Below are positions 13,831-40,312 of a stretch of 52,165 bases of DNA, piece after piece. Position numbers and translations under genes: made by a program. The notes under the pieces are model-generated. The model ran no database searches. It saw only the letters and a program-made list of their open reading frames with translations, and was not told where the DNA came from. The stretch covers positions 1 through 52,165 of the forward strand of contig JAGCPJ010000065.1 of assembly GCA_017965765.1 (NCBI GenBank). Direction: 5' to 3'. The stretch comes from Bacteroidales bacterium (GTDB taxonomy: Bacteria > Bacteroidota > Bacteroidia > Bacteroidales > F082). The stretch's first letter is position 1; each line of letters begins with the position of its first letter.

Positions 13831-15285
13831 ATGCTTGCTATTGATATTCAGAACACCTTGTCGTCCCTCGCCCAATCCATCGGCTTGAAGGCGATGGACA
13901 TCAAGCCCATCGCAGCCTCCGGATCGTCAAGGCAATACTATAGAATCCTCACTGAAAACAACAGTGTCATAGGCACATACAACGCAAATATCGAGGAGAA
14001 CGAAGCCTTTTTCTACCTGACTACCCATTTCGGGGGGAAAGGCCTACCCGTCCCAAAACTCCTGGCCGTCAATGACCAGCGGGACTGTTATCTGCAGACA
14101 GACCAAGGTGACACCACCCTCTTTCAACACGTCCAACGATCAATCGCTTCAGGCCGTTACGATGAAACCACCATCGCCCTGTTCCGACAGACTCTGGAAG
14201 CTCTTGTCCGGTTTCAGACGGAAGGACACGAAGGGCTGGATTACAGCAAGGTCTATCCCACACCCTGCTTTGACAAGAGTTCCGTCATGGATGACCTGGA
14301 TTACTTCAAATATTATTTCGTGAAGCCCCATGCTGAGGTGGTCTTCAACGAACAGCGGCTCAAAGGCGAATTCAAGGCCTTTGCCGAGGTGTGCTGCCAG
14401 GCTTACCATGAGGCTTTCATGTACCGCGACTTCCAGTCGAGAAACGTGATGGTTTACGAAGGCCAGCCCTGTTTCATCGACTATCAAGGAGGTCGTCAGG
14501 GACCCTTGCAATACGATGTGGTCTCACTGTTGTTTCAGGTAAAGGCCCAGATGCCACAAACCCTCCGTGACGAACTCCTTGAACATTATAAGGGCATCTT
14601 GGCCCAACGTCTGGATCTCAAGGCGATCGCCTTTGACCAATACTATCCCTACTTCGTGTATCTCCGTTTGCTTCAAGTACTTGGAGCCTACGGTTTCCGT
14701 GGGTTGATACAGAAAAAGGCCCATTTCCTCGAAAGCATCCCTTATGCTTTGAAAGAACTGGCCGCCTGGACTGAAAGGCATCCCCTGACAGGCTATCCCG
14801 AGTTGGAAAGCGTCATCCGTCAAGTGATCGGCCTACTCCCAAAATATGATTCCACTTTCCACTCTCCACTTTACACTCTCCACTTCCCACTCACCGTCAC
14901 CGTCAACAGCTTTTCGTTCAAAAAAGGCTATCCCGACGATTTCAGCGGCAACGGAGGCGGCTTTGTGTTCGACTGTCGCGCACTCCCTAACCCGGGGAGA
15001 GAGCCACAATTCAAGACCAAGACCGGCCGTGACTGGGAAGTGATTGAATACTTGGAAGAAAAGCCCCAGACCCACCTGTTTCTCGAACATGTGAAAGGGC
15101 TGGTCGGCCAAAGCATCGACAACTACCTGGAACGCCATTTCACCCATCTGATGCTCTCTTTCGGCTGCACTGGAGGCCAGCACCGCTCCGTCTTTTTCGC
15201 GCAAAGCATCGCCGATTGGATCAGATCCAACTACCCCACCGTCCACGTCGCACTCAACCATATCGAACAAAACATCCATGAATAA
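13831..15285 (+). CDS. Aminoglycoside-phosphotransferase-like sugar kinase fused to a RapZ C-terminal domain
   Basis: The protein has 484 residues. Residues 1-335 form an APH/ChoK-type kinase like AmgK: a Gly/Ser-rich loop (ASGSSRQYYRI, 29-39), the Brenner catalytic motif (YRDFQSRNVM, 198-207) and the metal motif (FIDYQGG, 215-221). AmgK phosphorylates N-acetylmuramate/GlcNAc at C1 in peptidoglycan recycling. Residues 355-484 match the C-terminal half of RapZ (VTVNSFSFKKGYP, FDCRALPNPG, GCTGGQHRSVFFAQ at 445-458), the part that in E. coli binds glucosamine-6-phosphate and GlmZ RNA. RapZ's own N-terminal P-loop half is absent. The linker (340-354) is encoded by a 42-base heptamer array. MurU starts inside the stop codon (8-base overlap), supporting a cell-wall recycling role. 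Substrate specificity is inferred. Confidence 0.88.
   Translation: MLAIDIQNTLSSLAQSIGLKAMDIKPIAASGSSRQYYRILTENNSVIGTYNANIEENEAFFYLTTHFGGKGLPVPKLLAVNDQRDCYLQTDQGDTTLFQHVQRSIASGRYDETTIALFRQTLEALVRFQTEGHEGLDYSKVYPTPCFDKSSVMDDLDYFKYYFVKPHAEVVFNEQRLKGEFKAFAEVCCQAYHEAFMYRDFQSRNVMVYEGQPCFIDYQGGRQGPLQYDVVSLLFQVKAQMPQTLRDELLEHYKGILAQRLDLKAIAFDQYYPYFVYLRLLQVLGAYGFRGLIQKKAHFLESIPYALKELAAWTERHPLTGYPELESVIRQVIGLLPKYDSTFHSPLYTLHFPLTVTVNSFSFKKGYPDDFSGNGGGFVFDCRALPNPGREPQFKTKTGRDWEVIEYLEEKPQTHLFLEHVKGLVGQSIDNYLERHFTHLMLSFGCTGGQHRSVFFAQSIADWIRSNYPTVHVALNHIEQNIHE
14851..14892 (+). repeat. Six tandem 7-bp units inside the kinase/RapZ coding sequence
   Basis: Units are TCCACTT, TCCACTC, TCCACTT, TACACTC, TCCACTT and CCCACTC. 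The total is 42 bases, divisible by three, so the frame is kept and the array encodes the interdomain linker (STFHSPLYTLHFPL). The reverse strand reads GTGGARA-type units, close to the other heptamer arrays of the window. Confidence 0.85.
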
Positions 15286-16009
15286 AACCGCCATGATTCT
15301 TGCCGCAGGGCTGGGCACACGGCTCAAGGAGAAAACCCAAGACCGTCCCAAAGCACTCGTCGAAGTCGCCGGAAAGCCCCTGCTGCAACACAATATCGAA
15401 AACCTCATCAAGCAAGGTTTCGACACCATCATCGTCAATATCCACCATTACGGCGACCAGATCATCCGATTCCTCGAAACGCACGACTTCCCTGCCAACA
15501 TCTATATCTCCGATGAACGGGGCTTGCTGATGGACACGGGTGGCGGCATCATCCAGGCACTCCCCTTCTTCCACGACACTCAAGCCGTGCTGGTTCACAA
15601 CGTGGACATCCTCAGCGACCTCCCGCTCATGGAACACTACCAGCAATTCCTCTCTTCTGGCGACGACGCCTGGCTGTTGACCCAAGACCGGAACACCAGC
15701 CGAAAACTACTCTTCAACGAAGACAAGCTATTGATCGGATGGCGTAACCTGAATGAGGGCAGCTATAAATGGGTCAATGGCGAGAAGAAACAATTCAAAG
15801 AACTGGCTTTCAACGGAATACATATATTCAATCCTTTTATCTTTGCGAATTTCCAGTGGCAACGTTACAGCATCATCGATCTTTACCTCCTACTTGCAAG
15901 CAAGTACACCGTTCGCGCTGTGGAAATCAATCCCAGTCTCTGGTTTGACATTGGGAAAATCGAGGATTTTGAACGCATCAACCAAGCAATAACGGACCGT
16001 CTATCATGA
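15278..16009 (+). CDS. murU: MurU-like sugar-1-phosphate nucleotidyltransferase
   Basis: The 243-residue enzyme begins with the nucleotidyltransferase signature MILAAGLGTRLKEKTQDRPKALVEVAGKP (residues 5-33), then has the metal/substrate blocks DERGLLMDTGGGI and VHNVDIL. The length and single Rossmann-like domain match MurU, which makes UDP-MurNAc from MurNAc-1-phosphate and UTP. It follows the AmgK-like kinase with an 8-base overlap and is followed by the AddB-like gene with a 4-base ATGA overlap. The kinase plus uridylyltransferase pair would recycle cell-wall amino sugars while bypassing the fosfomycin-sensitive MurA step. Specificity for MurNAc, GlcNAc or another sugar cannot be read from the sequence. 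Confidence 0.82.
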   Translation: MNKTAMILAAGLGTRLKEKTQDRPKALVEVAGKPLLQHNIENLIKQGFDTIIVNIHHYGDQIIRFLETHDFPANIYISDERGLLMDTGGGIIQALPFFHDTQAVLVHNVDILSDLPLMEHYQQFLSSGDDAWLLTQDRNTSRKLLFNEDKLLIGWRNLNEGSYKWVNGEKKQFKELAFNGIHIFNPFIFANFQWQRYSIIDLYLLLASKYTVRAVEINPSLWFDIGKIEDFERINQAITDRLS

Positions 16010-18870
16010 AAAGCAACTTCATCAACCACCTCGCAGAACAAATCAAAGATAAATACAACCTCCGTGAAGAAGAACTCACGGTGGTCTTTCCCAACAAACG
16101 CGCCGCTTTCTACCTCCGGTCGCAATTCAAGAAGATCTACAATCAAGATATCTGGCTCCCCCAGATGCTCTCCATTCAGGAAGCCATGAGCCAGTGGAGC
16201 GGTATCCAGTTGGTGGACAACCTTGAACTGATGTTCGAGTTGGTGGCCATCAACTCAGCCTTGTATCATGGCAGAGAGAGCCTCAGCATCTTCGGAAGCA
16301 TGGCTCCTCAGATGGCAAACGACTTTGACGAGATTGACCAATATGCGGTGGACGCCAACCACCTGTTTTCCTATCTGGTGGATGAAAAGAGCCTTGGCGT
16401 ATGGCAGCCAGGCGAGCAGATGACCGAGAAAGAGAAGGCCTACCTGGATTTCTTCAAGAATCTGAAGCAATACTACGACCAACTGCGAGAACGGCTTGAA
16501 ACGCAAGGCAAGGGCTACTACGGAATGATCACCAGGAAACTGGCAGGAATGCGCGATGAGGAGCTTTTGGAGATGACGGACCATCGAAAGATCATCTTTG
16601 CCGGATTCAATGCCATCACCCCCACGGAGAAAGCCATCATCGACAAGCTGTATCGCAATGGCGTTGCCGAGGTGGTCTGGGACTTCGACCAATATTATGT
16701 TGAAGACGCAAATAACGAAGCAGGCTGGTTTGCCAGACGGTACCAGGACGTACCCTGGAAACCTCATGGATTCTCTTCCAACCTTCTTGATGAGGCCAAG
16801 GACATCCATCTGGTCGGTGCCATGGGCAACACCATCCAGGCCAAGGCCCTTCAAAGCCTTCTAGAAGTCGAAAAAGACAAGAACACCGCGGTGATTTTGG
16901 CGGACGAGAAGTTGCTGATCCCCGTGCTTAACGCCATTCCCGATGATCCGGAACGCTTTCCGAACATCAATGTCTCCATGGGATATCCTCTGAGGCAAAC
17001 GGCAGTGTATGACTTGGTCAACGCCTTGTTCCTGCTACATCGGAGAGGCCGAAAAGTCAAGGGTGGCGGATGGTACCTTTGGCCCATCTTGCGTATTTTG
17101 GACTTGGAATTGGTCAAGGTGATTTTCACCAAAGAAGAAATCGATGCTATCAACGACTACAAGAACAAGGTTACCAAACAATCCGGTTTCATTTACATTG
17201 CCAAGAATTTCTCCGACACCTGCAAAAGTGCGGATGTCATCGAATTCCTAGGCCTGGTGACCGGCGAGCCGGCAGACATGACGCAGCCGCAGCAGTTTTT
17301 GAAAGGATTGACTTCCCTGTTGTCGTTCATCGCCAACAAGATCCATCGCAACGAAAAGGAAACGGAAGGTCTGTTCCTCTTGAACCAGATCAGCGAAATC
17401 GGGAAAACCATCAACCGATTGGACGGCATCTTGCACCGTTACCAACGCTATGTGGAGCATCTGGATGATCTGAACCTGTTGTTCAACATCGTATCCAACA
17501 ATTCAGCCATCAAACTCAACAGCAGTGCCACTTCCGGACTTCAGGTCATGGGCCTGCTCGAAGCCAGAAACCTGGACTTCGACACCGTTTACATGATTGG
17601 CGTCAACGAGGGCGTGTTACCTTCCGGCAAAAGCCAAAGCAGTTTCATCCCCTATCAGATTCGGAAGGAAACCGGACTCCCCGACTATAGGGAAAAACAG
17701 GCGGTTTACGCCTATCACTTCTACCGTCAGTTGCAAGGCGCCAAGCATATCCATCTCCTCTACAATGCCAGCAGCGCAGAAGCAGGAGGAGAACAAAGCC
17801 GGTTCCTTCTGCAACTCAAATACGAGTTATGCCAACGCAATCCCAAAATCAGTTTGTCCGAGGAGATCTTCACCAACAAAACGACGAAAGATCCTTCCCC
17901 GAACGCTTTGTCGGCCGAAAAAACTGATGATGTTATGGTAAAACTAAGGCGCAAGCTACAAGTGCCGGAGACGCCAGAACAACTCCGCTATGCCATGGCA
18001 CCGACCTCCATCTCCACTTACCTGAAATGTCCTTTCCGCTTCTACATGAGTTATCTGATGGGCGTCAAAGACGACAGCATGGACGAAGAAGTGCAATCGA
18101 ACGTCATCGGAACCATCGTCCACGAAACCCTTAAAAAGCTCTACCATCCCTATCGCAACCAGTTCATCAGCAAGTCGATACTGGAGCACGACATCATTCC
18201 CATTAAAGACAAGTCCCTTGACGTTGTTGTTCATGAAACAATGGTTCAGGGTTTGTCCGATGTCGGTTTCAACTATCTCAACAAACTGAATATCGATAAA
18301 CTATTTGATTGTTACTTCAATTATGAACTCCAAGCAACGGATGGGCACACGCTCACCATGGTGGACCTGGAAGAGCTTTATCATGCCTCGCTGGATGTCA
18401 ACGGTATCCCTTGCGTCATTGCAGGAACCATAGACCGCATCGACCGCTATGACGGGAAACTTCGCATCATCGATTACAAGACCGGCAGGGTAGAACAAGA
18501 TGACCTCGTCGTGAAAAACACGATCAAGGGTCCCGAAGACATCCCGGAGAAAGCAATGCAGTTGTTGATCTACAAATACCTGTATCTACGCACCCATCCC
18601 GACACTGATCCGAACAACGTCACGGCTTTCATCTTCGGATTGAGATACCAGAAGATAGCCTACGAACTCGTTGTTGAAAAGGAGGACCTGAAAACGGATT
18701 TCCTAGGGACGATGGAAGGCTATCTTCGAAGCATCTTTCAAGAAATGACAGACAAGAGCATTCCTTTTGTACAAAAGACAGACAAGCAGCGCAAACAATG
18801 TGAATATTGTGACTTAAGGATCATCTGCCTCAATACTTCAGTAGGATCCTCACTGGAAGATGATCACTGA
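16006..18870 (+). CDS. AddB-like PD-(D/E)XK nuclease / inactivated helicase
   Basis: The 954-residue protein is of the Bacteroidota AddB-like family. The N-terminus (VVFPNKRAAFYLRSQ, about 24-38) and the middle block MGLLEARNLDFDTVYMIGVNEGVLP (about 508-532) mark a UvrD-like fold without a strong Walker A. The C-terminal nuclease has GTIVHETL, then AGTIDRIDRYDGKLRIIDYKTGR with the Asp and the D-x-K catalytic pair. Cysteines in CPFRFY and in the final CEYCDLRIIC are placed to hold an iron-sulfur cluster, as in AddB. With an AddA helicase-nuclease, not in this window, it would process double-strand breaks for RecA. Its last 41 bases overlap the converging endonuclease gene. Confidence 0.9.
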   Translation: MKSNFINHLAEQIKDKYNLREEELTVVFPNKRAAFYLRSQFKKIYNQDIWLPQMLSIQEAMSQWSGIQLVDNLELMFELVAINSALYHGRESLSIFGSMAPQMANDFDEIDQYAVDANHLFSYLVDEKSLGVWQPGEQMTEKEKAYLDFFKNLKQYYDQLRERLETQGKGYYGMITRKLAGMRDEELLEMTDHRKIIFAGFNAITPTEKAIIDKLYRNGVAEVVWDFDQYYVEDANNEAGWFARRYQDVPWKPHGFSSNLLDEAKDIHLVGAMGNTIQAKALQSLLEVEKDKNTAVILADEKLLIPVLNAIPDDPERFPNINVSMGYPLRQTAVYDLVNALFLLHRRGRKVKGGGWYLWPILRILDLELVKVIFTKEEIDAINDYKNKVTKQSGFIYIAKNFSDTCKSADVIEFLGLVTGEPADMTQPQQFLKGLTSLLSFIANKIHRNEKETEGLFLLNQISEIGKTINRLDGILHRYQRYVEHLDDLNLLFNIVSNNSAIKLNSSATSGLQVMGLLEARNLDFDTVYMIGVNEGVLPSGKSQSSFIPYQIRKETGLPDYREKQAVYAYHFYRQLQGAKHIHLLYNASSAEAGGEQSRFLLQLKYELCQRNPKISLSEEIFTNKTTKDPSPNALSAEKTDDVMVKLRRKLQVPETPEQLRYAMAPTSISTYLKCPFRFYMSYLMGVKDDSMDEEVQSNVIGTIVHETLKKLYHPYRNQFISKSILEHDIIPIKDKSLDVVVHETMVQGLSDVGFNYLNKLNIDKLFDCYFNYELQATDGHTLTMVDLEELYHASLDVNGIPCVIAGTIDRIDRYDGKLRIIDYKTGRVEQDDLVVKNTIKGPEDIPEKAMQLLIYKYLYLRTHPDTDPNNVTAFIFGLRYQKIAYELVVEKEDLKTDFLGTMEGYLRSIFQEMTDKSIPFVQKTDKQRKQCEYCDLRIICLNTSVGSSLEDDH

Positions 18871-19849: not shown

Positions 19850-19905
19850 ATATTAATAACGAATAATACCACAAAATTATATATTTTAATTTAATTTCGA
19901 CATTA

Positions 19906-19936
19906 TTTGTTATTAATTCAGAATTATTTATCTTTG
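19906..19936 (+). promoter_or_regulatory. Consensus Bacteroidota promoter of aat
   Basis: TTTG (19906-19909), exactly 19 bases, then TAtcTTTG (19929-19936). The ATG lies 12 bases beyond the box, so the 5' leader is only about 9 bases. This also rules out the in-frame TTG at 19907 as start. Confidence 0.8.
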
Positions 19937-19948
19937 CATGTTGAACAA

Positions 19949-27464: not shown

Positions 27465-27628
27465 AAAAACGGCGAATTTTACGAATTTTACGAATGATTA
27501 TTTGTTCGTTTAATTCGATTAATTCGCCGTTTTTTATTCGCTTAATTCGTTTAATTCGCCGTTTTTTTATTCGCTTAATTCGTTTAATTCGCCGTTTTTT
27601 ATTCGCTTAATTCGTTTAATTCGCCGTT
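27465..27628. repeat. Tandem array of 32-33-bp units with inverted flank
   Basis: Three nearly identical units (27519-27550, 27551-27583, 27584-27615) and a partial fourth (27616-27628) each contain TTAATTCGCCG, a T-run and TTCGCTTAATTCGT. They are built from TTCGnTTAA-like 9-mers. On the left, 27465-27500 has AACGGCGAATT and two GAATTTTAC copies in the inverted sense, so AACGGCGAATT can pair with any AATTCGCCGTT on the right. This gives alternative hairpins followed by T-runs. It fills the whole spacer between the converging permease and DUF1846 genes. Confidence 0.9.
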
Positions 27629-29091
27629 CATTGTTTTCTCACCGGGTCGCAGGTCAACCCCACTCCGAGTTTGCTAAAGATCTTTCGATCCACCTCGCTG
27701 AGCATCACGGTGGAATGGACTTGGCATCCTTCCAGCTGAGGTAACATCTCCAGCGCCTTGCGGCATTTCTCATCATCGGGACTCAACACCGAAAGGGCTA
27801 TCAACACTTCATCCGTGTGAAGACGCGGGTTGTTGCCTTGCAAGTAATCCACCTTGGTCTTCTGGATGGGTTCTATCATGTATTGGGGAATCAACTTGAT
27901 GTCGTGATCAACGCCCGCGAGATATTTGGTGGCATTGAGAAGCAACGCAGCACTCGGTCCCAGCAATGCACTGGTCTCCGCGGTGATGATGGTGCCGTCG
28001 GCCAATTCGATGGCGGTACAATCCACGCCGCAACGTTCTTTGCGTTCCCTAGCGGCAACCACACAACGGCGGTCCTCCACGGTAATCTTGGCTTGGTTGA
28101 GCAACATCTTGATCTTGGTGACCTCATTCTCATTGCCACCTCCTTCAGCCATGGTGTCCAATGCGGTGAAATAACGACGGATGATCTCGTCCTTGGCAGC
28201 TTTGCTACAGACTTCGTCATCGCTGATGCAGAAGCCCACCATATTCACCCCCATGTCGGTCGGCGATTTATAGGGACATTTCCCATAGATGCCTTCAAAC
28301 AAAGCATTCAGCACGGGAAAGATCTCGATGTCGCGGTTATAGTTGATGGCAATTTTTCCGTAGGCATCCAGATGGAAAGGATCGATCATATTCACATCGT
28401 TGAGGTCGGCCGTCGCCGCCTCGTAGGCCATGTTGACGGGATGCTTCAAGGGGAGACTCCACACCGGGAATGTCTCGAACTTGGCGTAACCGGCGTTAAT
28501 TCCTCTTTTCTGCTCATTGTATAGTTGGCTGAGGCAGACCGCCATCTTGCCGCTTCCCGGGCCGGGTGCGGTGACAATCACCAAAGGCTTGATGGTCTCC
28601 ACATAGTCGTTTTTACCGAAACCCTCGTCGGAATCGATCAATGCCACATTGTGTGGATAGCCATCGATAAGGTAATGGTAATAGGCTCGGATGCCGAGAT
28701 GCTCCAAGCGGTTGTGGAAAGCCGTAGCGCTACTCTGCCCGTTGTAATGGGTGATGACCACGCTACTGACCAGGAAACCGCGTTTTTGGAACTCGTTGCG
28801 AAGGCGAAGCACATCCACATCGTATGTGATGCCCAGGTCGTTTCTGATCTTGTTTTTCTCAATGTCGGAAGCGCTGATGACGATGACGATCTCGGCACTG
28901 TCGCTGAGGTTTTGCAGCATCTGCAACTTGCTGTCAGGCTTGAAGCCTGGCAGTACTCGGCTGGCATGGTTGTCGTCAAAAAGCTTGCCACCCAATTCAA
29001 GATAAAGCTTGTTGCCAAACTGACCTATCCGTTCACGGATGTGTTCACTCTGGATCTTGAGATATTTCTCGTTGTCGAATCCTATTTTCAT
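27628..29091 (-). CDS. DUF1846 family protein, function unknown
   Basis: The 487-residue cytoplasmic protein starts MKIGFDNEKYLKIQSEHI and has the family's glycine-rich block VIVTAPGPGSGKMAVCLSQLYNEQ (about 171-194), which looks like a nucleotide-binding loop. It also has QRGINAGYAKFETFPVWSLPL-like and ADLNDVNMIDPFHL stretches typical of DUF1846. The biochemical role is unknown to me. It is second in an operon: the MauE/DoxX-thioredoxin gene ends 3 bases upstream. Its stop codon lies at the edge of the 32-bp repeat array. Confidence 0.92.
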   Translation of the reverse strand: MKIGFDNEKYLKIQSEHIRERIGQFGNKLYLELGGKLFDDNHASRVLPGFKPDSKLQMLQNLSDSAEIVIVISASDIEKNKIRNDLGITYDVDVLRLRNEFQKRGFLVSSVVITHYNGQSSATAFHNRLEHLGIRAYYHYLIDGYPHNVALIDSDEGFGKNDYVETIKPLVIVTAPGPGSGKMAVCLSQLYNEQKRGINAGYAKFETFPVWSLPLKHPVNMAYEAATADLNDVNMIDPFHLDAYGKIAINYNRDIEIFPVLNALFEGIYGKCPYKSPTDMGVNMVGFCISDDEVCSKAAKDEIIRRYFTALDTMAEGGGNENEVTKIKMLLNQAKITVEDRRCVVAARERKERCGVDCTAIELADGTIITAETSALLGPSAALLLNATKYLAGVDHDIKLIPQYMIEPIQKTKVDYLQGNNPRLHTDEVLIALSVLSPDDEKCRKALEMLPQLEGCQVHSTVMLSEVDRKIFSKLGVGLTCDPVRKQ

Positions 29092-31747: not shown

Positions 31748-31756
31748 TTTCTAGTC

Positions 31757-32335: not shown

Positions 32336-32353
32336 AATTATACTATTTCGCAG

Positions 32354-32361: not shown

Positions 32362-32393
32362 GTTATTATTACACCAAAATAAATTAAAATAGC

Positions 32394-32401
32394 TATTTTT
32401 G
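32394..32401 (+). promoter_or_regulatory. -7 box of the beta-helix lipoprotein gene
   Basis: TAttTTTG 16 bases before the ATG at 32418, divergent from the barrel operon. No -33 TTG was seen at the usual distance. Confidence 0.55.
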
Positions 32402-32417
32402 TGCCAAAATTCACGCA

Positions 32418-33875
32418 ATGAGACGGTTTTTTCTCCTCATCACTGGTTTTCTGATTCTTTTTTCCGCCTGCCGGAAAGAAAACCCAATCAACACGGACCC
32501 AAGCCTCAAACTTTCCTTCTCCGCTGACACCGTGCTATTCGACACCGTATTCACCACCATCGGCTCTTCCATACATCAACTAAAGGTTTATAACAAGTAC
32601 GATGATGATTTGAATATCAGTGAAATACGACTATTCGGAGGAGAGCAATCCCGTTTCAAGCTCAACATGGACGGTGAGAGCGGCTGGGAGTTTCACGACA
32701 AGGTCATCACGGCCAACGACAGCCTTTTCACCTTCTTGAATGTGACCATCGACCCCAACGACCAAAGCAGCCCCTTTGTCGTTGAGGACAGCCTCCTTTT
32801 CGTCACCAACGGCAACCAGCAGATGGTCAAGTTGGTCGCTTGGGGACAAAACGCCCACTACATCATCGCCGACCGCAAGGTGCAGGGGCTGCCAAAATTC
32901 ATCATCGTTGCCGACAGTTTGGAAACCACCCATTGGTACAACGACCTCCCCTACGTCATCTATGGCTATGCGCTGATCAACTCGTACGGCACGTTGCACA
33001 TCCACGAGGGCGTGAGAATCTATATGCACGACCTGGGGTACGACGACCATTGCGGACTATTGTCTTGGAGCGATGGCCAGCTGATTATCGAAGGCACGGC
33101 CGAGAATCCCGTGACCATCCAGGGTGACCGCATGGAGCCTTACTTCAAGGATCAACCGGGACAGTGGGACCGCATCTGGCTCATGGACGGAAGGCCTGGA
33201 GGTGACCATATCATCAGTCATGCCATCCTACGTAACGCATTCGTTGGCATCCAGGCAGAATCCTTCCTAAAAGCGACGCAAGCGGCTTTGTATATCGACA
33301 ATACCGTGATTGAGAACAACACGGGTTGGGGAATCCTTGCCCGTAACTACGCCATCGGTGCGGATAACCTGGTCATCGACAACTGCGCAGGATACAACTT
33401 CGAGGCACAGATGGGCGGCTATTATGTTTTCCGCCATACCACCATGGGTAACTACTGGTGGCAGTCCCCGCGCACCACACCTTCCATGCTCTTCTCCAAC
33501 GTAGTCGAAGACCAAGACGGTGTTCAACATGAGATTCCTTTCCATTTCGAAATGGGCAACAGCATCGTTTACGGCTCTGCGGAGGATGAGTTCAAGACCG
33601 CCTTGAGAGGCAACGAGGTGGACACCACCTACCAGTTTGACCATTGCCTCATCCGAAGCCTGAAGCATCAATCCTCAGAGGCTTTCGTCAACTGCATCTT
33701 CAATCAAGACCCGATGTTTGTGGATTATCGCTCCTTCGACCTTCACCTCAGCGATGCGCTCTCTCCAGCGGTAGGTACTGGAAGCCCTGTCATCGGCGCT
33801 ATGGTTCCTTATGACATAGAAGGCAACAGCAGACTAGGCACCCCAGACCTGGGAGCCTATCAGCATAGAGATTAA
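32418..33875 (+). CDS. Surface or periplasmic lipoprotein with right-handed beta-helix-like region
   Basis: The 485-residue protein has a lipoprotein signal ending LFSAC (Cys18, then RKENP). Residues 25-150 look like a beta-sandwich (LSFSADTVLFDTVFTTIGSS, a start shared by many Bacteroidota lipoproteins). Residues 150-460 have repeated short strands (GTLHIHEGVRIYMHD, LIIEGTAENPVTIQGD, AILRNAFVGIQAE, YIDNTVIENNTGWGILARN) typical of parallel beta-helices. The DLGAYQHRD ending resembles choice-of-anchor/parallel beta-helix proteins. No catalytic motif was recognised. It is monocistronic and ends just before an inverted heptamer array. Confidence 0.85.
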   Translation: MRRFFLLITGFLILFSACRKENPINTDPSLKLSFSADTVLFDTVFTTIGSSIHQLKVYNKYDDDLNISEIRLFGGEQSRFKLNMDGESGWEFHDKVITANDSLFTFLNVTIDPNDQSSPFVVEDSLLFVTNGNQQMVKLVAWGQNAHYIIADRKVQGLPKFIIVADSLETTHWYNDLPYVIYGYALINSYGTLHIHEGVRIYMHDLGYDDHCGLLSWSDGQLIIEGTAENPVTIQGDRMEPYFKDQPGQWDRIWLMDGRPGGDHIISHAILRNAFVGIQAESFLKATQAALYIDNTVIENNTGWGILARNYAIGADNLVIDNCAGYNFEAQMGGYYVFRHTTMGNYWWQSPRTTPSMLFSNVVEDQDGVQHEIPFHFEMGNSIVYGSAEDEFKTALRGNEVDTTYQFDHCLIRSLKHQSSEAFVNCIFNQDPMFVDYRSFDLHLSDALSPAVGTGSPVIGAMVPYDIEGNSRLGTPDLGAYQHRD

Positions 33876-33880
33876 TTAAG

Positions 33881-33953
33881 AATTCGGAATGCGGAATGCG
33901 GAATTATTACCTCCGGAGGCCAATTCCGCATTCCGCATTCCGCATTCCGAATT
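33881..33953. repeat. Inverted pair of heptamer arrays (GCGGAAT / ATTCCGC)
   Basis: The left arm has TCGGAAT, GCGGAAT, GCGGAAT (33884-33904). The right arm has three ATTCCGC and one ATTCCGA (33923-33950). The 25 bases of the left arm are perfectly complementary to the last 25 of the right arm. Between them is a second palindrome, CCTCCGGAGG. The right arm runs into the stop codon of the LpxD-like gene. It is the whole spacer between two converging genes and may end transcription both ways, although no T-run is present. Confidence 0.92.
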
Positions 33954-34896
33954 AGTATTCCGGGTTTTTCTTGTAAAACTCTTGGAGGAATTCAGGCAAT
34001 TTGCGCATGGCGGCCTGTTCGCGCCATTGTTTGCGTACGTCTTGGGCGGGGACACCGAAGACTGCTTTACCGGGTTCGATGTTTTTGTCCACGGCTGAGG
34101 TGGCCAGCACCACAGCGCCTTCCCCGATGACCAAGTCTTTGTTGACACAGACACGGCCCCAGAGGATGACATCGTCCTCGATACGGGTCACGCCTGCAAT
34201 GGCCGCGTGGCTACCTATCAAGCAGTTGCGACCGATATAACTATCGTGACCTACCTGACAATGGTTATCCATCTTCGTACCTTTCCGGATCGTCGTGTCG
34301 GAAGTCACGCCCTTGTCGATACTGCACAAGGCGCCGATCTCGACATCGTCTTCGATCACCACCCGGCCGAACGACTCGAACTTCTTGTAGCTGTCCGACC
34401 TCCTTTGGAAATAATAGGCATCGGCACCGATGACGCTGCCCGAATGGATCACGACATTGTCGCCAACCACGCAATAGTCATAGATGGTGACATTGGGATG
34501 AATGACGCAGTTCTTCCCTATTTTGGCGTGGTTGCCCACAAACGAGCCCGGCATGATCACCGTCCCCTCCCCAATCTCAGCACTGGGACTGATGGCTTGG
34601 GTGCAAGACTCGATGGGACGGTAATGACGCATTGCCTTCAGGAACGCGTCGAAAGGATCGTCATGAATGAGCAAAGCCTTGCCCTCGGGACACTCCACGC
34701 GCTTGTTGATGAGCACGACGGTAGCAGCAGAGTTCAAGGCTTTGCCATAGTATTTCGGGTGATCCACAAACGTCACGTCACCCTGCTCCACCTTGTGAAT
34801 CTCGTTGAAGCCAGTGATCGGAAACTTGGGATCTCCGATGAATTCAGCGCCGATGAGTTCGGCGATTTGTTTTAATGTGGTTTTCTCGATTTTCAT
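33952..34896 (-). CDS. LpxD-like UDP-3-O-acyl-glucosamine N-acyltransferase
   Basis: The protein has 314 residues from the Met of MKIEKTTLKQ, whose A is the last base of the efp TGA (TGATG). An N-terminal substrate-binding domain (1-95) is followed by left-handed beta-helix hexapeptide repeats (about 100-265, for example AEIGEGTVIMPGSFVGNHAKIG) and a C-terminal helix. DNHCQVGHDSYIG holds the His expected for LpxD catalysis. LpxD adds the N-linked acyl chain in lipid A synthesis. Bacteroidota often carry two LpxD-like genes, one linked to efp as here. Whether this copy acts in lipid A or on another sugar is open. Confidence 0.87.
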   Translation of the reverse strand: MKIEKTTLKQIAELIGAEFIGDPKFPITGFNEIHKVEQGDVTFVDHPKYYGKALNSAATVVLINKRVECPEGKALLIHDDPFDAFLKAMRHYRPIESCTQAISPSAEIGEGTVIMPGSFVGNHAKIGKNCVIHPNVTIYDYCVVGDNVVIHSGSVIGADAYYFQRRSDSYKKFESFGRVVIEDDVEIGALCSIDKGVTSDTTIRKGTKMDNHCQVGHDSYIGRNCLIGSHAAIAGVTRIEDDVILWGRVCVNKDLVIGEGAVVLATSAVDKNIEPGKAVFGVPAQDVRKQWREQAAMRKLPEFLQEFYKKNPEY

Positions 34897-35459
34897 CAGG
34901 CTTTCACTCGCTCGCAATATTCACCGGTGCGCGTGTCAACTCTGATCAGGTCATCCGTATTGATGAACAACGGCACTCTTACCATAGCGCCGGTCTCAAC
35001 GGTGGCTTCCTTCATGGCATTGGTGGCGGTGTTGCCCTTTTCGCCAGGCTCAGTATAGGTCACCTGAAGCACGGTCTTCACTGGCATTTCAGCGTACAGG
35101 ATGGTCTCGGTGGAGGCATCGACGACGACATCGACGATGTCGTTTTCCTTCATGAACTTCACGCCCGTGATATTGTCTTCGGCGATCGGGATCTGGTCAT
35201 AGGTCTCGGTATGCATGAAGATGAAGTCTTCACCTTCCTTGTAGAGATACTGGTACGGACGATGTTCCACACGGACTTCTTCCAGTTTCACACCGATGTC
35301 GAATCTCTTTTCAAGCACGTTACCGCTGAGCACATCTTTCAGCTTGATACGCATGATTGTGTTGCCCTTACCAGGCTTAACATGTTGGAAGTCAATGCAG
35401 AAATAAATCTTACCATCCATACGGATTGCACTTCCGATCTTTACATCTTGACTAAGCAT
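34896..35459 (-). CDS. efp: Translation elongation factor P
   Basis: EF-P enters the ribosomal E site and rescues stalling at polyproline. The 187-residue protein has the three-domain sequence, with the modified-residue loop FQHVKPGKGNT placing Lys31 at the tip, and the C-terminal VETGAMVRVPLFINTDDLIRVDTRTGEYCERV block. Relatives have Pro or Ala after KGN; Asn-Thr here is a small variation. It is first in a two-gene unit with the LpxD-like gene. A TAatTTTG box lies 46 bases upstream. Confidence 0.97.
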   Translation of the reverse strand: MLSQDVKIGSAIRMDGKIYFCIDFQHVKPGKGNTIMRIKLKDVLSGNVLEKRFDIGVKLEEVRVEHRPYQYLYKEGEDFIFMHTETYDQIPIAEDNITGVKFMKENDIVDVVVDASTETILYAEMPVKTVLQVTYTEPGEKGNTATNAMKEATVETGAMVRVPLFINTDDLIRVDTRTGEYCERVKA

Positions 35460-35505
35460 AGTATTATTTCAGTTTTTAAAATGATAATTTGATGATTTAA
35501 AGGGG

Positions 35506-35513
35506 CAAAATTA
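35506..35513 (-). promoter_or_regulatory. -7 box of efp
   Basis: Minus-strand TAatTTTG between the recF-operon terminator and efp. No clear -33 element was seen. Confidence 0.5.
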
Positions 35514-35543
35514 AGAAAAAAGATTGAAAACTAGTATTCTTTT

Positions 35544-35568
35544 AAAAAAAATGGAGGTACAACCCTCC
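35544..35568 (-). terminator. Rho-independent terminator of the porQ-recF-DUF721 run
   Basis: On the minus strand GGAGG and CCTCC pair around a 6-base loop, followed by A and eight T. It starts 17 bases after the DUF721 stop codon. Confidence 0.8.
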
Positions 35569-35584
35569 TCCCGTCGGCTCCCCA

Positions 35585-35875
35585 TTACCTGAAAACGATG
35601 TTGGAAAGCAGGTCGTAGCCCACCAGGGCATTGAGGTTTTTGCACAGCAGCGACTTGGAATAACTCAACTCGGTACGGAGGCTGTCGGAAACGATTTTCA
35701 CATAAAGCACACCTTCTTTTATATAAAGCTCCCTCGAGTACTGCGCGATGAAAGGTCCCACCACGCCATTCCAACCGTTGATGATCCGCTGCTCATCAAG
35801 ATACGACGAACCCTTGTGCTCTTCATAGAAAGCCTTGATCAATTCCCCCACCGTGTTTTGATTCGGATCACTCAT
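35585..35875 (-). CDS. DUF721 (DciA-like) protein
   Basis: The 96-residue protein has the DUF721 fold: GELIKAFYEEHKGSSYLDEQRIINGWNGVVGPFIAQYSRELYIKEGVLYVKI, with the conserved W-x-x-VVG, and then SLRTELSYSKSLLCKNLN. The family includes DciA, a loader of the replicative helicase in many bacteria, and is usually linked to replication or repair genes. The start chosen is the Met of MSDPNQN, which overlaps the recF stop by 8 bases. A terminator follows. Confidence 0.88.
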   Translation of the reverse strand: MSDPNQNTVGELIKAFYEEHKGSSYLDEQRIINGWNGVVGPFIAQYSRELYIKEGVLYVKIVSDSLRTELSYSKSLLCKNLNALVGYDLLSNIVFR

Positions 35876-36983
35876 TATACATCGCTTTGACATGCCCCGA
35901 GTCCACCTCGAAGATCTTATGATTGATATTGGTATCGTCGAACAGACGTTCTATTCGCTGTTGCTGGGTATCCGTGATAAACACCTGCCCAAAATGGTTG
36001 TCACCCACCAGCCGCACCAGTTTCTTCACCCGTTGGTCGTCCAGCTTGTCAAAGATATCATCCAATAGCAATATGGGCTTGTACCCAATCTTTTGGTAGT
36101 TGTATTCAAATTGGGCCAGACGGATGGACACGACGAACGACTTTTGCTGGCCTTGCGAGCCGAACTTCTTCAACGGATGACCGTCCAAGCAGAACTCCAG
36201 ATCGTCCTTATGGATACCCACGTTGGTGTAGCACGAGTAACTGTCCTGTGGTAGGCTTTCCTCGAGCAGCTGCGCCAAGGGCTTTTGGTCCAATTTCGAG
36301 GAATAGGTCACTTCCACCTGTTCGCGCCCACCGGAGACCACCTCATAATAGTGCTGGAAAATCGGATGGAATTCTTCCAGGAAGGTATGGCGTTTCTTAT
36401 GGATCTCTGTGGCACAACCGCAGAGCTGCTCGTCCCAAAGTTGCAGCAGCGCCCTGTCGAAATGCCTGCTGTCGGCAAACTGCCGCAGCTGCATGTTGCG
36501 TTGCAACAGCGCACGGTTGTATTTCAGCAGGGCATTAAGGTATTGCGGGTCAAACTGGGAGATCACTCCATCGATAAACTTCCTCCGCAACTCGCTACCA
36601 TCATTGATCAGGTCGCGGTCGTATGGCGAGATCATCACCAACGGAAACTTCCCGATATGATCCGAAAGACGATCGTATTCTTTCTTGTTGAATTTGAACG
36701 ACTTCTTGGAATCCCGTTTCTGGACGCAGGACACCGACTCGTTTTCTTTGTCGTCGAAGCTATACGTTCCATGGATGCTGAAGAAGTCCTGATCGTGACG
36801 GATGTTCTGCTTATCGACTGAGCTGAAAAAACTCTTGCAGAAAGAAAGGTAATAGATGGAATCGAGGATGTTGGTCTTGCCTGCCCCGTTGAGGCCCACA
36901 AAACAATTCAATTTCTCCGAAAACACCAATTCGGCGGATTCGCAGTTCTTGAAGTTGGCCAATCTCAATTCCTTCAGATACAT
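35868..36983 (-). CDS. recF: DNA replication and repair protein RecF
   Basis: RecF is an SMC-like ATPase that, with RecO and RecR, loads RecA at gaps. The 371-residue protein has Walker A (FVGLNGAGKTNILDSIYYL, about 28-46), the ABC-type signature near FGSQGQQKSFVVSIRLAQ and Walker B (ILLLDDIFDKLDDQR, about 308-322). Length is normal. It lies between porQ (stop immediately upstream) and DUF721 (8-base overlap). Confidence 0.97.
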   Translation of the reverse strand: MYLKELRLANFKNCESAELVFSEKLNCFVGLNGAGKTNILDSIYYLSFCKSFFSSVDKQNIRHDQDFFSIHGTYSFDDKENESVSCVQKRDSKKSFKFNKKEYDRLSDHIGKFPLVMISPYDRDLINDGSELRRKFIDGVISQFDPQYLNALLKYNRALLQRNMQLRQFADSRHFDRALLQLWDEQLCGCATEIHKKRHTFLEEFHPIFQHYYEVVSGGREQVEVTYSSKLDQKPLAQLLEESLPQDSYSCYTNVGIHKDDLEFCLDGHPLKKFGSQGQQKSFVVSIRLAQFEYNYQKIGYKPILLLDDIFDKLDDQRVKKLVRLVGDNHFGQVFITDTQQQRIERLFDDTNINHKIFEVDSGHVKAMYNE

Positions 36984-38015
36984 TTAGAACTTGTTGAGAT
37001 CCATGCTGATGGTAAGGTAATTCGGAGAGGCTGTGATGGACTGGCGGGAGCGCGCATAGCTGATTTCGAACATCTTGACCTTAACGGCGACACCGACAGA
37101 GAAGCCCACCAAGGTACGGTCTTTCGGGACATCCATGGCGTAACGTTGTCCGTAATCAAACGCCGAACGCAATGCGATGTTTTTGCCCAAGGCCAGTTCC
37201 CCGCCAACGACAAAGTGACATGCCAGGTTCCTGGCAAAACGGGCCACTGCGTTTTCCGGGGTAAACTCACCGGTAAGCGGGTTGGTATGCTGTTCGATAT
37301 AGACGGGGGTCATCAGCAGTTTGTTCCATCGCTGGATGTCGTCATACCAAAGCATCACTGTCAGCGGAAGATGGTCTAGTTTCTTGGAAGCGCCAAAATC
37401 CATGGAAAAAGGAAGTCGGCTGCCATGGTAGTCAAAGTTGTTGAACAGCTCCACGCCCAGGTTGCGCGCTGTAAGGGCAAACACCCAGCCGTTGTCGGCG
37501 AGGTATGAGCCAGCGACATCTACGGCGAGGGCACCGCCGGAGTACGACTCATATTGATGTCCCGCATACTTGAGTGCGGCACCGATGCGCCAGTTGGGGG
37601 TAAGTTGTCGTCCCCAACCGAGGGTGGCGGCATAGTCGGAACAAGAGAATTCTCCTGTCTGCACCCCTCCTTCCGAAGTCTCTACAAAACGGCCATAGTT
37701 GAAATACTGCACCGTCCCTACGAAACTTCCCAGTTTTTCAAAGGTACGGGAATACTGCGCCGTGACATAGTTGATATCCGTAAAATAGTCAACGTATGAC
37801 AGGCTTAACTTGTTGTGCATGGTAGCGTCGATGGCCGATGGGTTGAAGGTAGATACCTCGATATTGCCATCAGCCAGTGGCAAAGGCAGTCCGCCCAATG
37901 CAGCCACTCTCGCAGAATTGGAAGCGCGGAGGAAAGAATAGGTGCCGTTGGCCTGTTGCGCCGAAGCTCCCAAAGCCATCACGAATACCAATAATGTGAT
38001 AATGTATCTTCTCAT
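36984..38015 (-). CDS. porQ: Type IX secretion system protein PorQ
   Basis: The 343-residue outer-membrane barrel has a signal peptide (about 1-19, ASAQ), followed by GTYSFLRASNSARVAALGG, a typical PorV/PorQ-family start, and strand pairs throughout, for example VGTVQYFNYGRFVETSEGG. In Porphyromonas PorQ works with PorU, PorV and PorZ in the attachment complex that cleaves T9SS C-terminal signals and attaches cargo. Two cargo-like proteases are in this window. The ATG at 38015 was chosen because the longer frame only translates the heptamer repeat. recF starts on the next base after its stop. Confidence 0.9.
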   Translation of the reverse strand: MRRYIITLLVFVMALGASAQQANGTYSFLRASNSARVAALGGLPLPLADGNIEVSTFNPSAIDATMHNKLSLSYVDYFTDINYVTAQYSRTFEKLGSFVGTVQYFNYGRFVETSEGGVQTGEFSCSDYAATLGWGRQLTPNWRIGAALKYAGHQYESYSGGALAVDVAGSYLADNGWVFALTARNLGVELFNNFDYHGSRLPFSMDFGASKKLDHLPLTVMLWYDDIQRWNKLLMTPVYIEQHTNPLTGEFTPENAVARFARNLACHFVVGGELALGKNIALRSAFDYGQRYAMDVPKDRTLVGFSVGVAVKVKMFEISYARSRQSITASPNYLTISMDLNKF

Positions 38016-38025
38016 AATATTAACT

Positions 38026-38060
38026 TTCCGTTTTCCGTTTTCCGTTCTCCGTTCTCCGTT
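38026..38060. repeat. Five tandem 7-bp units (TTCCGTT / CTCCGTT)
   Basis: Three TTCCGTT and two CTCCGTT units follow without gaps and end on the first base of the nusB stop codon as read on the plus strand. The array fills most of the 44-base spacer between nusB and porQ. On the minus strand the unit is AACGGAA/AACGGAG. Confidence 0.93.
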
Positions 38061-39019
38061 CACGCCAGTCCTCTCCCAGTTTTCACGATCTTTCCTTGTT
38101 CTTTCAGTTGTCCGGAGAGCTTGTCCAGCAAGCCATTGACAAACCTATGGCTTTCAGCGGTGCTGAAATACTTGGAGAGCTCGATATATTCATTGATGGT
38201 GACCTTTGTGGGAATGTCTTTGCACTGGCAGAACTCCGTCAAAGCCATGAAGATGATGATCTTGTCCATCAAAGCCACTCGGTCGTAGTCCCAATTGGAC
38301 AGGTTCGACTTGACGAGTTCCTGATATTCATCCGCATGGCGCAACGTTTCCCTGAAAAGCTTGACCACAAACTTCTTGTCATCGTTTTCAGCTTCATTCT
38401 CCGTCTTATATACCTCAGGAAGCTTGGTGTCGGCATCAAAACGTTCATCCATCTCGTTGATGAACTTCCAAAGCAGGAAGACGCCCAGCTGGTAGTCGGT
38501 ATTGTAAAGCAGGTTTTTATCGGAATAGTAATCCATCAGCACTTCGTCCTCGGCCATAAGGTTGTCGATGACATCGAGAATCAGTTTCTTGTCGTGAGCG
38601 AAGCTGTCCTTCTCGCTAGTCATATACTCTTGGTATTCCGGGCAAGCACGAAGGCGGTTGTAAAAACCACGAACGATATCCTCGCGATCGTTGGACCAAT
38701 CGATCTTGTACTTCTCTTGCAGCGACTTGAGATCGCGGTTGCTTTCCAAAACACCCAGCACACGATTGTCAACGAACTTGCGGTTGGGATGCAGATCTTC
38801 TTCTGTGGGGAAGTTCTTATGCATATTCTCCTCAATCCTTCGTTCAGCGAAATACTTCACCTCAACCCAAAATGACAACTGACGGAGGAATAAACCATAG
38901 AGGCTATCCACATTGTTGAGCAGACGACGTTCAGCTGCGGGCAAATCTGTTTCTCCAGCCTGGTGATACGCATAGATTTCTTGTAACACCTTGACTCTCA
39001 AGAACCTTCTGTTAAGCAT
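38060..39019 (-). CDS. nusB: Transcription antitermination factor NusB (long Bacteroidota form)
   Basis: The 319-residue protein, against about 140 in E. coli, begins MLNRRFLRVKVLQEIYAYHQ. Its C-terminal 130 residues carry the NusB core: FVVKLFRETLRHADEYQELVKSNLSNWDYDRVALMDKIIIFMALTEF and then TKVTINEYIELSKYFSTAESHRFVNGLLDKL. The N-terminal extra region is usual in this phylum. NusB with NusE/S10 binds boxA RNA in rRNA antitermination. The longer in-frame ATG (39055) overlaps a -7 box, so 39019 is the start. Confidence 0.95.
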   Translation of the reverse strand: MLNRRFLRVKVLQEIYAYHQAGETDLPAAERRLLNNVDSLYGLFLRQLSFWVEVKYFAERRIEENMHKNFPTEEDLHPNRKFVDNRVLGVLESNRDLKSLQEKYKIDWSNDREDIVRGFYNRLRACPEYQEYMTSEKDSFAHDKKLILDVIDNLMAEDEVLMDYYSDKNLLYNTDYQLGVFLLWKFINEMDERFDADTKLPEVYKTENEAENDDKKFVVKLFRETLRHADEYQELVKSNLSNWDYDRVALMDKIIIFMALTEFCQCKDIPTKVTINEYIELSKYFSTAESHRFVNGLLDKLSGQLKEQGKIVKTGRGLA

Positions 39020-39052
39020 AGGAACAATGAAATATACTTTGATACTAATCTG

Positions 39053-39060
39053 CAAATTTA
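39053..39060 (-). promoter_or_regulatory. -7 box of nusB
   Basis: Minus-strand TAaaTTTG 33 bases before the nusB ATG. The -33 element is not clear. Confidence 0.5.
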
Positions 39061-39104
39061 AGAAATTATTCTTTATTGAAGTGGATAAATCGAAAAATAA
39101 AAGT

Positions 39105-39112
39105 TATATTTG
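39105..39112 (+). promoter_or_regulatory. -7 box of the rubrerythrin gene
   Basis: TAtaTTTG 57 bases before the ATG at 39170, divergent from nusB. Confidence 0.55.
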
Positions 39113-39169
39113 CAGATTCAAAGTTCAAATTGTCAATTGTCAATCATTAACTCATAAAAGAAAACAAAC

Positions 39170-39715
39170 ATGAAGAAAAAATTCATTTGTCCCATCTGCG
39201 GATTTGTTTATGAAGGGGAAGAAGCCCCGGAACGTTGCCCTCAGTGCAGGCAGATTGTTGAATGGAAAGTCGTTGACGAAAACGCTGCCTTGAATTTCGT
39301 CACCGAGCATGTCATCGGCATCGCCAAGGACACAGGCGACGAGATGATCAAAGACCTCAACGCACAGTTTATGGGGGAAGCTACAGAGGTAGGCATGTAC
39401 CTGGCCATGAGCCGCCAAGCCGACCGCGAAGGCTATCCTGAGATCGCCGAGGCCTTCAAGCGCTATGCTTTCGAAGAGGCCGACCACGCTTCTCGCTTTG
39501 CTGAACTGCTGGGCGAGGTGGTTTGGGATACCAAGACCAACCTCTACAAGCGCATGATCGCCGAATGTGGCGCCTGCGAAGAGAAAATGCGCATCGCCCG
39601 TGTGGCCAAAGAACGCAACCTTGACGCCATCCACGACACCGTCCATGAGATGGCCAAAGACGAAGCCCGTCACGGCAAAGGCTTTGAAGGTCTGTACAAG
39701 AGATACTTTGGTTAA
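39170..39715 (+). CDS. Reverse-type rubrerythrin (peroxide-scavenging non-heme iron protein)
   Basis: The 181-residue protein has an N-terminal rubredoxin-like iron site (Cys7, Cys10, Cys23, Cys26 in [22 protein letters not shown]). A four-helix di-iron domain follows, with Glu residues and ExxH motifs ([33 protein letters not shown]). Having the rubredoxin part first is the reverse rubrerythrin order seen in anaerobes, where it acts as NAD(P)H-linked peroxidase. Ferritin follows after a heptamer repeat, so the pair handles peroxide and iron together. This supports an anaerobic or microaerophilic host. Confidence 0.95.
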
Positions 39716-39716
39716 T

Positions 39717-39744
39717 GCGGAATTCGGAATGCGGAATTCGGAAT
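39717..39744. repeat. Four tandem 7-bp units (GCGGAAT / TCGGAAT)
   Basis: Alternating GCGGAAT and TCGGAAT begin one base after the rubrerythrin stop and occupy half the spacer to ferritin. The same two unit types occur in the inverted array at 33881-33953. Confidence 0.92.
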
Positions 39745-39771
39745 TATTAACTACCTTAAACAAAGATAACT

Positions 39772-40284
39772 ATGATTAGCAAGAAATTAGCAAAAGCAAT
39801 CAACGACCAGATCAATGCAGAAATGTGGTCGGCATACCTTTACCTAAGCATGTCACAAGACCTCTACGCCAAAGGATTCAAAGGCATCGCTCATTGGTAC
39901 AAAGTTCAATTCCTTGAGGAGCAGGCTCACGCTGCCATCATGATCAACTACCTGCATTCACAGGACGAGAGAGTGGTGTTGGCTCCCATCGCCAAAGTCC
40001 AAACCAACTGGAAGACCATCCTCAGCATTTTCGAGGACACCTTGGCTCACGAGAAAAAGGTGACCGCCATGATCAACAACCTCTGCGACATCGCTGATGC
40101 TGATCACGACCGTGCTGCCGGCAACTTCCTCGCCTGGTTCATCGACGAGCAGGTGGAAGAAGAAGAAAACGCCCGCGACCTCATCGCCCAAGCCAAGATG
40201 ATCGGCGACCATATCGGTGGCATGATCATGCTCGACAAAGAGCTCGGCGCCCGCGAGTACCACACACCGGCTCCGCTGAAATAA
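39772..40284 (+). CDS. ftnA: Bacterial non-heme ferritin
   Basis: The 170-residue four-helix protein oxidises Fe(II) and stores iron in a 24-mer shell. Ferroxidase-type residues are visible: Glu in INAEMWSAYLYLSMS (about residue 17), EEQAHAAIM (Glu and His near 50-53), and later Glu/Gln in WFIDEQVEEEENARDLIAQ. It follows rubrerythrin at 56 bases. The stop codon is followed directly by a heptamer array and then a strong terminator. Confidence 0.96.
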   Translation: MISKKLAKAINDQINAEMWSAYLYLSMSQDLYAKGFKGIAHWYKVQFLEEQAHAAIMINYLHSQDERVVLAPIAKVQTNWKTILSIFEDTLAHEKKVTAMINNLCDIADADHDRAAGNFLAWFIDEQVEEEENARDLIAQAKMIGDHIGGMIMLDKELGAREYHTPAPLK

Positions 40285-40312
40285 ACGGAAAACGGAAAAT
40301 GGAAAACGGAAA
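40285..40312. repeat. Four tandem 7-bp units (ACGGAAA / ATGGAAA)
   Basis: Units ACGGAAA, ACGGAAA, ATGGAAA, ACGGAAA start on the base after the ferritin stop codon and stop just before the terminator hairpin. Confidence 0.92.

Follow-up and report, generated by a model that had tools for sequence, protein, structure and literature searches.

Seven-nucleotide tandem arrays of changeable sequence at the stop codons of an uncultured Bacteroidales-type bacterium and its relatives

Heptad repeats near stop codons have already been published for Xanthomonas and Nostoc (PMC4692102). As far as the accessible part of that account goes, the GGGAATC repeats of Xanthomonas and the GGGGA(C/T)T repeats of Nostoc/Anabaena are mostly intergenic, those on the coding strand lie mostly 0-50 bp from a stop codon or overlap it, and most Xanthomonas repeats are found between the same genes in two species, with length and sequence varying (PMC4692102). 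Direct repeats of TAACTGA are described, in the portion of the report available, from marine Beggiatoaceae, some Cyanobacteria and five Bacteroidetes including Paludibacter (MacGregor 2015, PMC4679880). Among long simple repeats, according to the same portion, heptanucleotides are the commonest class in most repeat-rich genomes (Mrazek 2007 as summarised in PMC4679880), and the preference of bacterial simple repeats for period seven stands as an open remark in these partly accessible repeat surveys (PMC4679880, PMC4692102). The stretch considered here, referred to as the window, is the 52,165-nucleotide contig JAGCPJ010000065.1 of a Bacteroidales bacterium, contig C64 of a genome (G000) of 2.0 Mb in 78 contigs that is 76% complete. 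Repeats with an exact step of seven nucleotides are numerous in this uncultured Bacteroidales-type bacterium and in many of its relatives, mostly directly behind stop codons.

Cyanobacterial STRR sequences are heptanucleotide tandem repeats of several related units, a feature met here in another taxon; an earlier note on this DNA had drawn that likeness, which is supported, although a 7-nt unit holds too little information to speak for or against common descent. Paludibacter is a member of the Bacteroidales. The TAACTGA heptamers reported from it and four other Bacteroidetes speak against the same note's remark that it knew of no named Bacteroidales equivalent, at least as the accessible text presents them (PMC4679880). 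The likeness extends to the Xanthomonas and Nostoc repeats, for which the partial text gives an exact 7-nt unit that recurs genome-wide far above chance and, on the coding strand, adjoins or overlaps stop codons (PMC4692102). In that text, however, the units are G-rich and quadruplex-capable, one type is studied per lineage and both strands are used (30% and 35% in Xanthomonas) with no overall bias to the coding strand, whereas here several families share a genome, GGG is rare, the purine-rich strand at stops is mostly the sense strand, and whole units are swapped at common sites, with a shared site in coding sequence besides (PMC4692102). Beggiatoaceae likewise have 7-nt tandem arrays at many sites per genome, but the accessible report gives them one unit, mostly just 5' of start codons, in contrast to the many units met here mostly at stops (PMC4679880). 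TAACTGA is the consensus of none of 268 arrays and is present as a copy in two. The constant-size repeats of Bacillus, as described in the available part of their source, also combine fixed length with species-specific sequence, but at 52 or 20-21 nt instead of 7, and that part makes no mention of stop codons as their place (PMC8161180). No paper on heptanucleotide or 7-bp repeats in Bacteroides or Bacteroidales was found in the open-access literature, a coverage that leaves subscription journals outside, and the accessible parts of the accounts compared do not bring together multiple units in one genome, the swapping of whole units at common sites and a shared coding-sequence site.

Tandem Repeats Finder, used for the period calls on the window arrays, recovers five arrays (six when both arms of an inverted pair are counted), all of exact 7-bp period and within 1-3 bases of where the earlier note had placed them; by its calls the first ends at 14891 and the one at nusB at 38060. 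The arrays and the genes beside them are as follows.

13795-15285, plus strand: gene with APH and RapZ C-terminal domains
14850-14892, minus strand: array of TCCACTY, six units, inside the coding sequence (CDS) 13795-15285, in the APH/RapZ C-terminal linker; purine-rich strand antisense
33880-33904, plus strand: left arm of the inverted pair, GGAATGC/GGAATTC, 3.6 units, 4 nt past the stop of gene 32418-33875; purine-rich strand is the sense strand of that gene
33905-33922, no strand assigned: loop with the palindromic CCTCCGGAGG, between the two arms of the inverted pair
33923-33953, minus strand: right arm of the inverted pair, GGAATGC in minus-strand reading, 4.4 units, beginning within the lpxD stop codon (33952-33954)
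33952-34917, minus strand: lpxD
38025-38061, minus strand: array of AACGGAR, five units, between the nusB stop (38060-38062) and the next start (38015); purine-rich strand is sense
38060-39055, minus strand: NusB-family gene
39128-39144, no strand assigned: short AATTGTC heptad repeat, 2.4 units, 5' of the rubrerythrin start
39170-39715, plus strand: rubrerythrin gene
39714-39745, plus strand: array of GGAATGC/GGAATTC, 4.6 units, from within the rubrerythrin stop codon (39713-39715), ahead of the ferritin gene
39772-40284, plus strand: ferritin-family gene
40283-40313, plus strand: array of AACGGAA, 4.4 units, from within the ferritin stop codon (40282-40284), with a separate intrinsic terminator downstream
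40315-40346, plus strand: behind the ferritin array, a hairpin with T-run resembling an intrinsic terminator

Placement against gene ends, as first described, stands for most of these arrays: the stop codons of rubrerythrin, ferritin, nusB and lpxD are each overlapped by one of the six, the right arm running into the lpxD stop as claimed, and the left arm lies 4 nt past another. The claim does not extend to the array at 14851-14892, which is inside the CDS.

How far does period seven exceed chance? Rates were taken from a first sample of G000, comprising the window and 20 further stretches (343,755 bases, or 344 kb) whose choice was blind to repeats yet non-random; a second 20 stretches and those from two relatives (G009 and G019) had been chosen for array hits or for nusB. 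Arrays were called with mismatches allowed at a score of at least 11 or at least 12, with dinucleotide shuffles as controls. Period 7 accounts for 48 arrays at the lower threshold and 45 at the higher, against 0.0 in the shuffles, and so the excess on which the earlier note had let its idea depend is there. Outside 7 and its multiples, each period yields 0-5 arrays at the higher threshold, the commonest, period 9, having nine at the lower and five at the higher. When exact-match runs are counted over the same bases, 25 period-7 repeats are found against 0.0 in shuffled sequence; periods 14 and 21 show up as harmonics, and the remaining periods have 0-5. Genome-wide, CGGAANNCGGAANNCGGAA has 136 matches in G000 (reversed control, 1) and AACGGARAACGGARAACGGA has 217 (control, 0); these are overlapping matches, not arrays, and the palette counts below are overlapping matches to three units. 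For those palette counts the reversed controls AGTGGAR and GGAKTGA are not clean, being themselves heptad units with up to 82 (G074) and 19 (G093) matches.

The preference extends to relatives. Twenty other members of the genus (343 kb) have 19 period-7 arrays against 0.4 in shuffled sequence, with at least one array in 10 of the 20 species, and the next periods, 24, 12 and 8, have seven, six and five. Across 26 named loci around nusB (477 kb) there are 40 arrays of period 7, 18 of period 15 and 10 of period 9; the relatives reached through nusB are uncultured Bacteroidales/Bacteroidia metagenome-assembled genomes, several from ruminant or buffalo, and include RGIG7248, RUG14679 and RUG12856. 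Other families of the order yield two period-7 arrays in 249 kb, a total drawn from 16 genomes in short, uneven stretches of 1 to 40 kb per genome. Arrays usually have few units; one AACGGAR array (G009:C71:12283-12442) spans about 160 bp, with more than 20 units. Period 7 holds whatever the unit sequence.

Most intergenic arrays start in or directly after stop codons, and their purine-rich strand there is mostly the sense strand. Of the 23 first-sample arrays that lie in clean spacers bordered by a stop, 21 start between -12 and +5 nt from it, where random placement within the same spacers predicts 39.6% (p=3.5e-7), in keeping with the link to gene ends that the earlier note had proposed. Under a looser nearest-gene rule 23 of 30 are at a stop, and five of the seven outside -12 to +5 are at least 319 nt off. 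Intergenic arrays number 32 of the 48, of which 25 lie between co-directional genes, five between convergent and two between divergent ones; across the 710 kb examined, the spacers 35 bp or longer comprise 179 co-directional, 89 divergent and 39 convergent ones. The other 16 are inside called genes, though some of these may be open frames that pass through an array. Among stop-adjacent arrays the sense strand is the purine-rich one in 21 of 24 in the first sample (one-sided p=1.4e-4) and in 61 of 71 across the 710 kb. Many of 77 stop-adjacent cases listed are flush with the stop codon, often having its last two bases in common. Thirteen of the 32 intergenic arrays are at most 30 nt from a start codon, all with the purine-rich strand as sense, a count from which short spacers behind stops are not separated out. 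The tight placement at stops, the strand bias and the rarity between divergent genes together point to a link with translation termination. Two readings were rejected: a fixed unit register relative to the stop codon, as flush arrays occur in several registers, and a supply of backup stop codons in all frames, which is not general, since AACGGAR and GGAATKC on inspection hold no stop codon. CsrA-like (ANGGA) sites, Hfq-like (ARN) sites and Rho loading on the antisense strand are further conceivable readings.

The units themselves obey a loose rule. A total of 48 distinct heptamers from several species, each counted once, fit one pattern at 5.41 bits, against at most 4.79 in 100 letter shuffles, and GAR is present in 37 of the 48, where 500 shuffles give a mean of 25.8 and a maximum of 37. 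The GGAA/GGA core pointed out beforehand fits the five window arrays; among the wider set of units it is the usual version of a broader preference for purines, which mostly takes the form of a GAR triplet on one strand. Runs of three or more G are mostly absent from the units, GGG being found in 15 of 268 arrays. Within this rule the unit families form a palette that differs from genome to genome and is drawn on at unlinked loci. AGGTGAR has 218 matches in G009, 53 in G004, 42 in G019 and 35 in G067, none in G000 or G022, and is present in 13 of 99 genomes; AGTKAGG has 111 in G093, 50 in G000, 48 in G056, 33 in G012 and three in G098, none in G009, G004 or G067, and is present in 30 of 99; AACGGAR has 217 in G000 and 154 in G022, and is present in 10 of the 99 genomes and in none of the other 89. 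The uniformity of units within an array had been taken as a sign of local copying rather than of one dispersed element, a view not supported as the whole story, given the recurrence of the same few families at dozens of unlinked loci per genome and the swapping of families between species at orthologous sites.

Such swapping is best seen where relatives share a site. Counted over the genes of window positions 28,001-50,000, at a score of at least 9 and in 14 near relatives (which are phylogenetically non-independent), orthologous stops carry an array in 17 of 61 cases where G000 has a stop array and in 0 of 191 where it has none. At the nusB stop the unit is AACGGAR in G000, AGGTGAR in G019 and AGTKAGG in G074, G098, G056 and G093, and in G022 AACGGAG is followed by AGATAAR with the 7-nt register unbroken. 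Among the 15 nearest genomes, six have a period-7 array there at a score of at least 10, G093 has one at 9, and eight have none at 9 or above, one of these (G100) showing degenerate heptads by eye; none of 15 more distant genomes was positive. Units also differ between species at the rubrerythrin, ferritin and lpxD stops. At the lpxD stop of a more distant clade (L164-L169), degenerate ATGGCNN heptads in two facing arms can be made out by eye; because these mostly fall below the counting score, heptad sites may be undercounted there.

A further site lies within a gene. The linker between the two conserved domains of the APH-RapZ protein has a period-7 array in 22 of 30 species, with the purine-rich strand antisense, and its units include TCCACTY, CTCCTCA, TCACCTY, AACTCTC and others. 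By eye, the linker unit matches the palette of the genome in seven species: TCACCTY (equivalent to AGGTGAR) occurs in G009, G019, G004 and G067, and CTCCTCA (equivalent to AGTGAGG) in G093, G056 and G012, which bear AGTKAGG. Several far-clade matches among the APH-RapZ orthologues (those in G011, G047, G080, G087, G055, G023, G052 and G098) have one to three internal TAG codons, for which recoding, a frameshift or alignment overrun are possible explanations. In a permutation test on 30 hand-picked arrays at five sites, which omitted 11 RapZ and three rubrerythrin far-clade rows, G100 at lpxD and a sixth site (gene 32418-33875), units at different sites of one species agree at 4.49 of 7 positions, against 4.04 under shuffled species labels (p=0.0005, 29 pairs).

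What could hold the period constant while the letters change? The explanation favoured here, tentatively, is that the arrays are DNA-level satellites, changing copy number in 7-nt steps, exchanging units between loci, and arising or persisting at the point of ribosome release from the transcript. Such "heptad satellites" would be a dispersed population of short arrays with the period fixed at 7 bp and the sequence free within the purine-rich rule. Slippage or repair synthesis would shift copy number in 7-nt steps, and short-patch template switching or ectopic conversion would copy unit types between arrays, which would explain both the genome-specific palettes and the turnover in the antisense coding linker. 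Arrays may arise or survive where the terminating ribosome quits the nascent mRNA: naked purine-rich RNA behind the last ribosome could pair with the template and form R-loops, and arrays may be tolerated at stops because a 7-bp step inside a gene shifts the frame and one upstream of a gene disturbs the promoter. That the unit changes within a CDS, on a strand reversed with respect to the mRNA, argues for a process on DNA rather than for an RNA ligand.

Several observations weigh against this explanation. The strand bias is absent more than 20 nt from a stop (11 sense and 14 antisense in the 710 kb), and a fixed register between neighbouring arrays is not borne out, the offset being 0 in two of seven same-strand neighbours. 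The 19 purine-then-pyrimidine pairs among neighbouring arrays are divided into nine between convergent genes, five between co-directional genes and five inside called genes; between convergent genes each arm can belong to the stop of one gene, but with 10 of the 19 lying elsewhere the pairs are not simply two stop arrays. Nor does the unit follow the palette everywhere: the linker of G000 has AGTGGAR, a minor unit there (6 matches as reversed control), the linker unit of G074 is outside the counted families, and G098 has AGTKAGG at nusB with its mere three matches genome-wide. Finally, when one site is compared in different species the likeness reaches 4.71 (94 pairs), no lower than that across sites within a species, and inheritance of the site is therefore at least as strong as any homogenisation.

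Alternatively, the arrays may be selected elements of the 3' untranslated region, in which the heptad is the binding register of an RNA-binding factor, multimeric or processive, whose role would be to protect mRNA ends or to exclude Rho from the untranslated part beyond the stop, with the palettes tracking the specificity of the factor. A selected RNA-binding element is a serious rival to the DNA-level process, although on balance it is somewhat unlikely. It would account for the sharp start at the stop codon, the sense purine bias and the sharing of sites, and the better fit of the distinct units to one pattern than in shuffles (5.41 against at most 4.79 bits) also suits it, as does the ferritin array, which is probably transcribed since it sits between a stop and a terminator-like hairpin. 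Several unlike unit families, however, coexist in one genome, the RapZ-linker array is antisense and yet its unit also varies by species, and the nusB-stop array (score of at least 9) is missing in eight of the 15 nearest genomes and all 15 more distant ones.

Ordinary neutral microsatellites, produced by slippage that prefers 7-nt loops and kept where a frameshift is harmless, would require no exchange between loci. Loops of seven nucleotides should escape mismatch repair. The prevalence of heptanucleotides among long simple repeats, in the accessible part of the report, also speaks for this origin (PMC4679880). Independent slippage is nevertheless an unlikely cause by itself, leaving unexplained the units shared at dozens of unlinked loci, the genome-specific palettes, the tight position at stops and the strand bias.

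It is improbable that the arrays are at root hairpin elements, whether a REP/MITE-like family or terminators working in both directions, with the single arrays as their remnants. At 33880-33953 the inverted pair does give a long hairpin of -45 to -47 kcal/mol (z -8 to -9), although it lacks a T-run. Neighbouring arrays form 21 pairs, 19 of them purine-then-pyrimidine, two same-strand and none pyrimidine-then-purine; ten of the 19 are not between convergent genes, so that a pair is more than two stop arrays. Loops, too, have a common core: five inter-heptad loops in the 710 kb, that of the window included, hold a sequence near CCTCCGGAGG, CC(T/C)C(C/A)GGAGG, which makes five of the nine places with the core pattern; heptads flank CCTCCGGAGG, or a form that differs by one base, at four places besides the window loop, and three G009 pairs have the related core CTACCGGTAG. 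Against this, the majority of 138 arrays in the 710 kb are single, and no second arm is found at the nusB stop in any array-bearing species. Strong folding is not seen for two single arrays, at 39714 (z -0.7) and at 38025 (z -1.9), while that of 40282-40350 comes from the separate intrinsic terminator downstream of the ferritin array. A terminator role for all arrays is accordingly not supported by folding, none of these three single arrays having a hairpin of its own.

Other repeated elements adjoin some arrays. An element of the form GTCATTGCGAGGAGCGGAG...GCAATCC lies between heptad arrays at L045 6486-6540 and L106 ~216-338; a similar REP-like repeat occurs in many bacterial genomes. A second, ACCGAT(A/G)TTTAACCCCGATGGGGTA, adjoins arrays at L107 ~53-89 and L109 ~11564-11610, and in L109 it is tandem-repeated with them. 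The window also has a 32-bp tandem repeat of four copies (TTTATTCGCTTAATTCG..., 27501-27628) with an inner 9-nt periodicity, which ends where the minus-strand frame 27628-29091 ends.

Templated writing, the addition of heptads by a reverse transcriptase that copies a short RNA in the manner of DRT10 or telomerase, is very improbable and was rejected, as the sole RVT_1 match in the incomplete genome G000 (G000:C67:31315-32505; L201 ~1306-2511) is of class UG26 and not UG17, genome-wide counts do not track it, and no template is seen by eye. In its favour are the presence of that enzyme, the precedent of DRT10 (UG17), which in the accessible part of its report makes tandem-repeat cDNA (PMC12632851), and a full-length UG26 gene in all seven of the nearest genomes with a nusB-stop array against three of the eight without (Fisher p=0.026, post hoc). 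Full-length UG26, however, is found in just 24 of 99 genomes of the genus and has no match in the array-rich G009 (84% complete), the genome-wide counts of three unit families do not differ with or without it in the nearest genomes (p=0.58), no heptad unit is visible by eye upstream of the gene, and several units per genome would require several templates. The UG26 gene is a candidate defence reverse transcriptase, with two copies in G074, and the stretch before it has complementary ends (AAAAAGGGGAT...ATCCCCTTTTT) that may belong to its non-coding RNA.

The DNA-level process favoured above may have a wider reach. It is possible, but doubtful, that several phyla have in common a process with 7-nt steps that writes and rewrites heptads behind the terminating ribosome, taking the units from the palette proper to each genome; sites that are not linked would then evolve together, as a bacterial counterpart of satellite DNA. 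One genus here offers a natural experiment, in which sites, strand and period are common while the units differ, and in which a site in coding sequence changes too. What is constrained is the period, the stop codon, the strand and the purine-rich core, and what is free is the letters; mutational and binding-site accounts of heptad repeats thereby become testable.

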